Below, piece by piece: positions 10,582 to 20,948 of a stretch of 64,000 bases of DNA. Source of the DNA: Leucobacter komagatae. Lineage in GTDB: Bacteria > Actinomycetota > Actinomycetes > Actinomycetales > Microbacteriaceae. The stretch is taken from contig NZ_VFON01000002.1 of the NCBI RefSeq assembly GCF_006716085.1, positions 248,001 through 312,000 of the forward strand, written 5' to 3'. A program made the translations under genes and the position numbers. Position 1 is the first letter of the stretch; each line of letters opens with the position of its first letter. Under the pieces are notes generated by a model. It worked only from the letters and a program-made list of their open reading frames with translations. It searched no databases and had not been told where the DNA came from.

Positions 10582-11470
10582 TGTTGCGGGTGGGGAAAAT
10601 CACCGATCATCGCGGGTGTTCGAGCACATCGGCGAGGCCCGCAGAGCCGTGCAGGTCACCGACGCACGCGAGCTTGAACTCGAACGCAGGCCGGCGCAGC
10701 TCCTCGCGCTCGGCTCCCAACTCGCGCACGGTTCGGTTGGCCTCAATGCCGCCGAGCGAGTCTTCGCCGCCCGCGGGGTGCGCGCGATCCGGATCCCGAC
10801 GATCCTGCTCAGCGTCATGCCCCACTACGCGTCGGCGCACGACGTGCGGGTGCCCCCGGCCTGGCTTTCCAGCGCGCTCGGCGATCTCGAGGCGGCCGAC
10901 GCGCTCGGCGACCTCACCTGGGTCATGACGGGCTACTTCGCGACGCCCGGGCAGCCTGCCGCCGTCGCCTCCTGGCTCGCCGCGCCCCCTCTGACCTCGC
11001 GCCCAGCGCTGCTCGTCGACCCGACGCTCGGGGACACCGAGCTCGGGTTCTACACCGACCCCGGGCTCGTCGAAGAGCTCCGCGCAGAGCTACTGCCGCT
11101 CGCCACCGGCATCGCCCCCAACACATTCGAGCTCGCCCACTTGAGCGGCCGCCCGCTCTCCGGCCTCACCTCTCGTGCCGCCATCGAAGAGGCCGCCCGA
11201 TCAATCATGGGTCCCCGAACCGAATGGGTGGTCGTCACTGGAGTCAGGCTGGATCGCCGCAAGGTCGCGCCCGGCCAGCCCGCCGACATCTGCGAAATCG
11301 TCGTGACCCCCACGTGGAGCAGCGTGCACCGTCAGCCCGACCGCAACATCGCCGCGAAGGGGCTCGGCGACACCTTCGCCGCGGCCCTCGCGACGGCCCT
11401 CCTTGACCGCTACGGCATTGGCGAGGCCGTCGAGTTCGCAGCGGCAGAGGTGCGGGCGCTCCACACCTGA
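10574..11470 (+). CDS. pdxY: Pyridoxal kinase (PdxK/PdxY-type)
   Basis: The 298-residue product is a ribokinase-fold B6 vitamer kinase. Visible features are SQLAHGSVGLNAAERVF, the LSVMPHY segment after the first lid, TGYFATPGQ, LLVDPTLGDTELGFY, IAPNTFELAHLSGRP and the catalytic Asp loop KGLGDTFAAALATALL (GLGD in place of GTGD). It phosphorylates pyridoxal, pyridoxine or pyridoxamine with ATP. The start lies in the shared palindrome, so control together with yggS is likely. It is the salvage enzyme of this B6 island; no de novo pdxST genes are present. Confidence 0.85.
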   Translation: MTNVAGGENHRSSRVFEHIGEARRAVQVTDARELELERRPAQLLALGSQLAHGSVGLNAAERVFAARGVRAIRIPTILLSVMPHYASAHDVRVPPAWLSSALGDLEAADALGDLTWVMTGYFATPGQPAAVASWLAAPPLTSRPALLVDPTLGDTELGFYTDPGLVEELRAELLPLATGIAPNTFELAHLSGRPLSGLTSRAAIEEAARSIMGPRTEWVVVTGVRLDRRKVAPGQPADICEIVVTPTWSSVHRQPDRNIAAKGLGDTFAAALATALLDRYGIGEAVEFAAAEVRALHT

Positions 11471-18567: not shown

Positions 18568-18984
18568 CTATCCGGCATGTTTCGCCGGCGGCAGGACGAT
18601 GTCGAACAGCCAGGCGAAAGCAAACGTGTAGACGAGGAAGAACACGAGGATGCCGAGTTCGAGGATGAACGCGTCGAGCAGACTGACGTTTAAGATCCAG
18701 GCGAGCAGCGGGATTAGGAAGACGACCAGCCCTCCCTCGAAGCCGATGGCGTGTGCGATCCGCCGTCGAACCGTTCTGGTCTGCGACGCCTGACGACGCT
18801 CCCAGGCTTCAAAGAGTGACGTCCACACGAAGTTCCAGAGCAGCGCGACCGTTGATGAAGCGATCGCTACAAGACCGGAGCCTGCGCCGCTGTGGCCAAG
18901 CGCCATGAGGGCGAGCGACACGAACAAGATTGCGGTCACTTCGTAAGTAACGACGTAGATAATGCGGCGCAAAACGGCAGACAT
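18568..18984 (-). CDS. PACE-type (AceI-like) efflux protein
   Basis: The 138-residue product has four membrane helices arranged as two tandem repeats of the bacterial transmembrane pair domain: RRIIYVVTYEVTAILFVSLA with WNFVWTSLFEAWERR, then RRRIAHAIGFEGGLVVFLIP with FAFAWLFDIV. The family exports chlorhexidine and other cationic biocides and, natively, polyamines. The ATG at 18984 follows GGAGGA; the longer frame to 19137 has no site. Confidence 0.8.
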   Translation of the reverse strand: MSAVLRRIIYVVTYEVTAILFVSLALMALGHSGAGSGLVAIASSTVALLWNFVWTSLFEAWERRQASQTRTVRRRIAHAIGFEGGLVVFLIPLLAWILNVSLLDAFILELGILVFFLVYTFAFAWLFDIVLPPAKHAG

Positions 18985-19148
18985 GAGGTCCTCCTGCAAG
19001 TGAGTCCATGGGAAGTCCTTGCAGGGTTCACGTCCATGAAGTGAATGATTCGGTAAGCCGGGTGACCGACTCACTGCTGTCCAAGGTATCGGGGCTGGCT
19101 GATCAAGCGCTGTGCAGGTTCGCGCCCTCGCAAGCAAACGTTGCGTAT

Positions 19149-19848: not shown

Positions 19849-20604
19849 CTACTGAGTGGGCCTCTTTGCCAACAGGTTTGGCACATTCGAGTTGTTGCGG
19901 AGCCAGTCCGCGAGATTGAAATCGATCATGTTTGCCAGCCTGACACACGCAAGATACCCGTCCTCGACCGTGAGCCGTGCAGCACCTTGCCCAGGTAAGG
20001 GAAATCCTCGCAGAAGCGGTTCGTGGTGCGCGACACGATTGCGAGCTGCATGCACAATGTCAATCTGTCGGAGTACCCAGTCCCTGGAATAAGCCTCCCC
20101 CGCGCTCTGAGCGGTGCGACGCCCGCCAGGGAATGCACGATGCAGCACCGCGCGCCAGTTCTGCTCATAGTCGACTTTTACTCGCCTGGGTTCCTTACCC
20201 ACGTATCCACCGGAGTCGAATAAATCACGCCAGAACCCAAACATGAGGCGCGCAACCAGCTTTCCCGGTACGTGTGGCAGGTCGGGGTTCGCCCTGTCTT
20301 GAGCCGGTAGTCGTTCCCAAGCTTTCTGCAAGTTCGTAGTGGCACGCCAATCGAGCGGTATGCCGCCGAGCTCATACCACCGCTCACCCAGGTGTGCGGT
20401 GAGCACACCATGGATCGCGTTACGAAGCGCGACTTCAATAATCGCGATGTCCGCAAACATTGCAGACGCGACGTCCCGATCCCACACATAAAATTCTCGG
20501 GCAAGAGACCGATCGCCATCGGCTTCGCTGAGATAGGTGCCTAGGCGGTCTGGGGAGATGGCAGCCTCGAGTGCTTCAAGCTGAAGATCACCACCTGCCG
20601 TCAT
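19849..20604 (-). CDS. Abi_2 / AbiF-like abortive infection protein (HEPN)
   Basis: The 251-residue product starts MTAGGDLQLEALEAA. It has the Abi_2 pattern: EFYVWDRDVASAMFADIAII, EVALRNAIHGVL, the WYELGG segment, and LVARLMFGFWRDLF. The C-terminal half has RNRVAHHEPLL at residues 188-198, an R-x4-H motif of HEPN ribonucleases. Members block phage growth by cutting RNA, and AbiF-type genes are reported next to a structured RNA. The ATG at 20604 has TAGTAT 7 bases upstream. A putative small RNA runs the opposite way from the same promoter region. Downstream lies the decayed toxin/antitoxin pair. Confidence 0.8.
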   Translation of the reverse strand: MTAGGDLQLEALEAAISPDRLGTYLSEADGDRSLAREFYVWDRDVASAMFADIAIIEVALRNAIHGVLTAHLGERWYELGGIPLDWRATTNLQKAWERLPAQDRANPDLPHVPGKLVARLMFGFWRDLFDSGGYVGKEPRRVKVDYEQNWRAVLHRAFPGGRRTAQSAGEAYSRDWVLRQIDIVHAARNRVAHHEPLLRGFPLPGQGAARLTVEDGYLACVRLANMIDFNLADWLRNNSNVPNLLAKRPTQ

Positions 20605-20610
20605 AGCACT

Positions 20611-20617
20611 TATACTA
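20611..20617. promoter_or_regulatory. Overlapping divergent -10 boxes of the Abi_2 gene and its facing RNA
   Basis: On the plus strand TATACT (20611-20616) is near consensus. On the minus strand TAGTAT (20617-20612) lies 7 bases before the Abi_2 ATG. The two promoters share the same bases, so their firing should compete. Confidence 0.55.
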
Positions 20618-20621
20618 GACA

Positions 20622-20684
20622 CGTAGTCCCCGGATATGGCCTCTCCCGACGTGAGCGGTGAAGCCTCCGGGGTTCTTTTCTTTT
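20622..20684 (+). ncRNA. Putative structured small RNA divergent from the Abi_2 gene
   Basis: After TATACT at 20611 the plus strand holds CCCCGGA (20628-20634) pairing with TCCGGGG (20666-20672), then GGC (20638-20640) with GCC (20663-20665) across a TAT bulge, and an inner TCCCG/CGGTGA hairpin with loop ACGTGAG. A T-rich tail (20673-20684, TTCTTTTCTTTT) ends it like an intrinsic terminator. There is no open frame. The position next to an AbiF-like gene suggests a partner RNA (inference). Confidence 0.5.
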
Positions 20685-20826
20685 AGCCCACTGGCGGAAG
20701 CCTCTGCTTGGCCCCCAGGGACGTTCGGCCAGTAATGCGCCTGCGTCATCAACGGTCGGCATTCCTTTTGAACGGCTCCTCTTTCAGCCGGCGATCATCC
20801 GGTCACGAGCTTTGCAGAAAACGACT
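20685..20826. other. Intergenic stretch without recognised features
   Basis: Between the putative RNA and the tRNA-Pro terminator I see no credible gene, repeat or operator. The short plus-strand ORF starting at 20708 has no family-like content. Confidence 0.4.
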
Positions 20827-20868: not shown

Positions 20869-20874
20869 CTTTCG

Positions 20875-20948
20875 TCGGGATGACAGGATTTGAACCTGCG
20901 ACCCCGTCGTCCCGAACGACGTGCGCTACCAAACTGCGCCACATCCCG
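20875..20948 (-). tRNA. tRNA-Pro (CGG)
   Basis: The minus strand folds into a cloverleaf with acceptor CGGGATG/CATCCCG, anticodon stem CGTCG/CGACG, loop TTCGGGA (anticodon CGG) and T loop TTCAAAT. The discriminator is A. CCA is not encoded. Confidence 0.95.

Follow-up and report, generated by a model that had tools for sequence, protein, structure and literature searches.

The DNA considered here is a 64,000-nucleotide stretch of the Leucobacter komagatae genome (contig NZ_VFON01000002.1, positions 248,001 to 312,000), called the window below, and its element of interest is a gene for an AbiF-like HEPN protein together with a small structured RNA encoded back to back with it. The gene lies on the minus strand at 19849..20604, giving 251 amino acids from ATG 20604, and is assigned by hidden Markov model (HMM), profile, and predicted-fold matches. 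The mechanical open reading frame (ORF) is longer, 19849..20622 on the same strand, with 257 amino acids from GTG 20622. We prefer ATG 20604 as the start because 251 amino acids is the length in the protein's database entry and in 4 of its 8 nearest relatives (one of the others has 257 and the remainder 254-295), and because GTG 20622 sits upstream of the gene's own predicted -10 box. The RNA occupies 20623..20684 on the plus strand; it is a predicted antitoxin with a predicted 5' end at G20623 and a U-rich 3' end, delineated by alignments, covariation, and the model R2 described below.

A preliminary description of this DNA had proposed an AbiF-like HEPN gene with an R-x4-H motif (RNRVAHH), and the protein bears this out. 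The codons of R-N-R-V-A-H-H lie at 20023..20043 on the minus strand, residues 188-194 of the 251-residue form, and R188, N189, R190, H193, and H194 are invariant in alignments A1 (28 rows) and A3 (99 rows), the R-polar-x3-H feature of HEPN proteins thus being present in 99 of 99 sequences. The predicted fold matches AbiF toxins, AbiF being among the families listed by the fold search, and the window protein has 16% identity to PbAbiF, whose complex with AbiFr is PDB ID: 8vz6 according to the part of PMC12737573 that deals with it. Among the defence genes profiled in PADLOC, the protein matches both PD-T4-5 (E = 3 × 10−11, residues 43-203) and, weakly, AbiD (E = 0.023). Relatives in genome contigs were found with an alignment as query, a single-sequence query having given none, and Pfam Abi_2 (PF07751) matches 91 of the 99 aligned relatives at E ≤ 10−3.

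The RNA has an outer and an inner stem, the inner one being GGC/GCC; it further contains the letters CUCU, a hairpin CCG/CGG, and a 3' tail rich in U, TTCTTTTCTTTT. The 7-bp stem, the inner hairpin, and this 3' tail had all been described beforehand and are all present in the window sequence. The outer stem pairs CCCCGGA at 20628..20634 with UCCGGGG at 20666-20672, and in A2, an alignment of 26 homologous RNAs, 3 of its 7 pairs have changes on both sides; the GCCUCU core at 20639..20644 is invariant in 26 of 26 rows and is common to the abiF RNA consensus. Folding of the single sequence is at chance level (z = -1.30, with 18 of 200 shuffles equally good), and a consensus scan near the RNA found neither promoter nor terminator. 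The homologues, not the single sequence, settle the question, and they confirm that the divergent structured RNA proposed in the preliminary description is real: related loci carry a matching RNA upstream of their Abi_2 gene and on the other strand. In A2, 88.2% of the paired cells can pair and 7 pairs have changes on both sides; the covariation score is 0.248 versus 0.111 ± 0.012 for shuffled alignments (0 of 500 as high), giving the covariation on which that description had made its proposal depend. RNAalifold independently recovers 11 of the 15 pairs. A second alignment, A4, leaves out the window and takes 13 shorter RNAs out of actinobacteria, alphaproteobacteria, and other sources; it scores 0.269 versus 0.128 ± 0.023 (0 of 500). 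Slid versions of A2 score at most 0.047, a comparison biased in favor of our structures, which were drawn by hand on A2 and A4 themselves. Model R1 is based on A2 and R2 on A4; R2, made from 13 other RNAs, gives the RNA of the window a score of 36.5 bits (E = 2 × 10−10).

The association with the gene holds well beyond the window. R1 was run on 98 sources, including 78 public loci that come from the top 80 among 374 confirmed stretches, and it has a match (E ≤ 10−3) directly upstream of the gene in 63 of the 78, 23 of the 78 being in its training set; the RNA is on the strand opposite the gene in all 63. Among the remaining 15, L017 and L042 have a visible longer-type RNA that R1 does not match, L060 has a short-type variant, 8 have a different RNA, class B (L059, L066, L068, L074, L075, L077-L079), L058 has R1 matches on the far side of the gene, and L054, L071, and L073 have no assigned type. 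Matches elsewhere than upstream occur in L076 (2183), L072 (5615), L058 (912 and 829), L027 (5161), L074 (820), L013 (1510), and, on the reverse strand, L050. A survey of 398 whole genomes of the family gives 32 R1 places; 12 of the best 14, and likewise 12 of the full 32, adjoin and diverge from an Abi_2 match, G028 is a plain hairpin, and 17 are weak (E about 3 × 10−5 or more) and beside no listed Abi_2 match. The L. komagatae genome has a single R1 match, and in a control of 296 genomes from the phylum R1 is strong in this genome only, with four weak matches (E = 3 × 10−5 to 9 × 10−4); therefore, the RNA is not a housekeeping one.

RNA type and protein clade are in lock-step. The RNAs were sorted by their inner loop into five classes, and these labels, assigned by ourselves, are explained by five changes on a protein tree of 66 rows (the minimum is 4; shuffled labels average 38.5, and none of 200 shuffles comes as low). 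The tree covers the window, 5 viral loci, and 60 public loci out of the 78, with near copies and unresolved loci excluded. T2 and B are each a single starred clade; considered singly, T1, T3, and T4 require 3, 2, and 3 changes, respectively. Class B accompanies alphaproteobacterial and viral Abi_2 genes (the 8 loci named above plus L110, L111, L113, and L114) and has, upstream of the gene and divergent from it, a hairpin GTCGA..TCGAC together with a terminator-like hairpin CACCAGGT, 6 pairs showing double-sided changes in 10 distinct rows. Other divergent structured elements, classes C, D, and E, are found in the bacterial family of L. komagatae beside other Abi_2 subfamilies (L088, L090-L093, L095-L105), which suggests many RNA types, from few loci with sketched structures; the class D and E patterns failed on 8 of 12 loci. 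The chances seem about even that the Abi_2 HEPN genes of actinobacteria and alphaproteobacteria make up a large unrecognized class of divergent RNA-toxin pairs, with clade-specific RNAs and with decoys captured by various kinds of phage, some of them beside tRNA or head genes.

The promoters of the two partners appear to overlap, as had been claimed for TATACT and TAGTAT. The predicted -10 box of the RNA is TATACT at 20611..20616 on the plus strand, the place of a TAnnnT at -13 to -8 in 47 aligned RNAs, and that of the toxin gene is TAGTAT at 20612..20617 on the minus strand; the toxin mRNA is predicted to be leaderless from ATG 20604. The promoter alignment contains 47 distinct RNAs set on the first RNA letter, 9 of them from Bifidobacterium and so not independent. 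Position -12 is A or T in 96% of them, and positions -13 and -8 are each T in 60%; of a TTG spanning -36 to -34, each letter is present in about half. This upstream pattern is laid out like a sigma-70 promoter, has a 17-nucleotide spacer, and stops at the start of the conserved GNA. In several loci, judged by eye and from predicted starts, the -35 of the RNA seems to fall on the toxin start codon.

AbiF and its associated RNA have been proposed as the stock of Cas13 and its CRISPR RNA (crRNA). The check suggested in the preliminary description, a comparison with the published abiF motif, came out negative. The covariance model RF03085 finds nothing in the window at the gathering cut-off and nothing at E ≤ 10 in 20560-20800, nothing at E ≤ 5 in the loci of 8 relatives, and nothing at E ≤ 10 in 101 nucleotides of L064, and it does find the positive control, phage phiC2, at 37.6 bits; a search of the whole L. 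komagatae genome gave no match with the controls silent too, and is uninformative. We reject membership of the window RNA in RF03085 on these results. In the other direction, R2 has no true match in 28 abiF-pattern loci plus phiC2, the best score in the right register being 13.9 bits in L144 (E = 0.065). The 2 RNAs nevertheless share an order of parts: outer C/G stem, GCCUCU, hairpin, ANGC, outer stem, the abiF consensus being CCCGCC-AAGC-CUCU...GC-UCAAAUC-GGCGGG. The core is present in phiC2, in 21 of 22 distinct abiF-pattern forms, and in 45 of 48 divergent RNAs, and since GCCUCU was built into both search patterns, only the remaining core features count as a test. The two RNAs differ in the unpaired side, with 2 nucleotides 5' and 6-8 nucleotides 3' of the core in 21 of the 22 abiF-pattern forms; among the divergent RNAs whose stem is exactly CCCCGG, 31 of 36 have 4-5 nucleotides 5' and 2 nucleotides 3'. 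Judged from these letters, the divergent RNA is likely kin to the abiF RNA. In viral contigs, 29 matches to an abiF-consensus pattern close the outer stem, and among 80 loci with the pattern (L140-L219) an AbiF-like ORF is found in L213 only.

Type III toxin-antitoxin systems have an RNA antitoxin upstream of the toxin and co-transcribed with it; here, the RNA is on the opposite strand in all 63 loci that have an R1 match directly upstream. Among the closest described systems is AbiFCd-RCd22 of Clostridioides difficile, in which, by the portions of PMC12373285 concerned, an Abi_2/HEPN protein with an R-x4-H motif likewise stands beside a structured RNA, which is upstream on the same strand, co-transcribed, and binds and neutralizes the toxin. 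That RNA has two RF03085 motifs, and the window RNA is one divergent motif that has a predicted promoter of its own and is unmatched by RF03085. None of the words "Actino", "divergent", "opposite", or "antisense" is used in the main text of PMC12373285. The titles and abstracts listed by our literature searches yielded no divergent RNA beside Abi_2 genes, with the Cell 2025 AbiF paper and the 2017 RNA-motif survey outside those searches.

R1 and R2 permit finding the RNA without the gene. A pattern with 19 fixed bases picks out 59 stretches in viral contigs, some tens of which may be chance by base-count arithmetic. Run on these, R2 scores 34-51 bits in 22 loci without an Abi_2 ORF, 64.9 in L270 with the gene, and under 29 in the others. 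The 22 standalone short-type RNAs are in L221, L234, L235, L237, L239, L240, L246, L247, L250, L252, L255, L256, L258, L263, L264, L267, L269, L274, L275, L276, L277, and L279. An HMM search over the whole of the 59 loci, which are partial and might have an Abi_2 gene further away, finds Abi_2 in L270 only, with a doubtful match in L227 (E = 0.09); the positive controls L057, L067, L110, L120, and L122 are detected, two of which, L057 and L067, are part of the models. Nine viral loci carry a copy close to the RNA beside the Microcella Abi_2 gene (L067), in which the RNA and about 45 nucleotides behind it are conserved and the DNA before it differs. Neighbors include genes for terminase and portal in L239, for head assembly and the major head protein in L252, and for major head and tail proteins in L258; the RNA of L277 begins 3 nucleotides after a tRNA-Asn, and the copies in L246 and L255 are near tRNA-His. 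A DNA search of annotated phages for the RNA returned one 25-nucleotide partial match only, in two records of one phage. In bacteria, 2 of the 14 best places in the family survey are orphans, G351 and G244, with no Abi_2 similarity within 2.2-3.3 kb either side and no Abi_2 match at E ≤ 10−3 in either whole genome. The orphan of G351 (L134, 2669-2727) is identical to the RNA of the window at all but 3 of 59 positions, and that of G244 (L135, 2189-2248) is near two small ORFs, by eye a vapBC-like pair. Orphan and phage copies are expected of an RNA acting in trans, and by analogy the standalone viral RNAs are possible decoy antitoxins. The excerpts consulted of PMC9964418 have cyanophage S-CREM1 carrying an abiF RNA and state no role there against AbiF; those of PMC3475682 describe an RNA decoy of phage PhiTE, pseudo-ToxI, that mimics a type III RNA antitoxin and whose function was demonstrated. 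Pseudo-ToxI is likewise a phage-borne antitoxin-like RNA, with a different toxin family and a different RNA, and for the window type the function is predicted only.

Taking the predicted fold match, the invariant motif, the covarying RNA, the promoter position, and the clade lock-step together, we read the pair, with a probability of roughly 0.72, as a defence module of two parts, a predicted AbiF-fold HEPN ribonuclease and the opposite-strand structured RNA that would silence it. The binding, silencing, release by infection, and cell arrest would be as in AbiF. Binding to the toxin dimer would be by the GCCUCU core and hairpin of the RNA, as reported for the binding of AbiF by RCd22 and AbiFr, and the overlapping opposed promoters would hold RNA in excess over toxin. 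Infection that halts host transcription, or another drain on the RNA, may then free the nuclease and arrest the cell, and phages with the RNA and without the gene may use it as a decoy antitoxin.

Several points weigh against this reading. The window protein scores 21 bits against PF07751, below the curated cut-off of 25.6, and profile comparison with the phiC2 AbiF gives no support (prob 0.3). The RNA promoter in the window keeps its -10 and has a poor -35. The failure of RF03085 and R2 to cross-match counts here also, as does our own hand in the class labels; in the tree, the long branches L042, L050, L055, L072, and L117 are unsure in position, as are seven rows with stops read as X. The RNA overlaps a mechanical ORF of at least 55 amino acids in 8 of 13 inspected viral loci, and the orphan RNAs could be remnants.

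The rival that survives best, an improbable one all the same, is that transcription of the RNA, not its product, represses the gene. The overlapping -10 boxes, at which we infer that the two polymerases would exclude each other, and the seeming place of the -35 on the start codon are what it would predict, but compensatory stem changes with invariant loop letters, orphan and viral copies that have no gene, and the lock-step of class and clade all point to a selected product. Slightly less probable still is type I-style pairing of the RNA with the Abi_2 mRNA, blocking translation or triggering decay. The window RNA is indeed complementary to the internal coding sequence at about 20070-20150 (-77 kcal/mol, with 0 of 60 dinucleotide-shuffled coding sequences as low), but the RNA does not overlap the toxin mRNA, the first 200 nucleotides of the message have no special pairing with it (277 of 300 shuffles as low), the lowest own-gene value in 32 other loci is -63.8, and the own coding sequence beats all 8 swapped ones in only 3 of the 32 (L024, L047, L048). 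We reject antisense control because the complementarity, striking in the window alone, is not conserved; the plus strand of the toxin gene at 20070-20150 resembles the RNA. Of the roles named in the preliminary description (antitoxin, guide, or sensor), the antitoxin is favored, by analogy and on the orphan and phage copies. A Cas13-like guide or sensor for foreign RNA is the least probable reading; the guide is rejected because there is one RNA in the genome, no type VI crRNA array or spacer, and no long variable unpaired segment.

The silenced-nuclease module would likely be a second, divergent arrangement, with a different RNA that shares the core and is tied by clade to the protein. Divergent pairs of this kind offer a broad range of natural variants with which to ask what parts of the RNA silence an AbiF-type nuclease; if the reading is true, RNA-neutralized Abi_2 toxins extend to actinobacteria, and RNA-based phage counter-defence is predicted.

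Two same-genus genomes become homologous to the window again at 20816-20819, which is between the RNA and a tRNA-Pro(CGG) gene at 20874..20948 on the minus strand, and the module therefore lies in a variable region beside the tRNA gene, which borders it. One of the two, G692, retains fragments of an Abi_2 gene (L289, about 10943-11429) in the variable region by its tRNA-Pro, next to DNA that is transposase-like by eye; R1 finds only a weak hairpin match there (17.9 bits), far from the fragments. Beside the module in the window, at 18568-19137 on the minus strand, is encoded a protein that contains two stretches of chlorhexidine efflux transporter (BTP).
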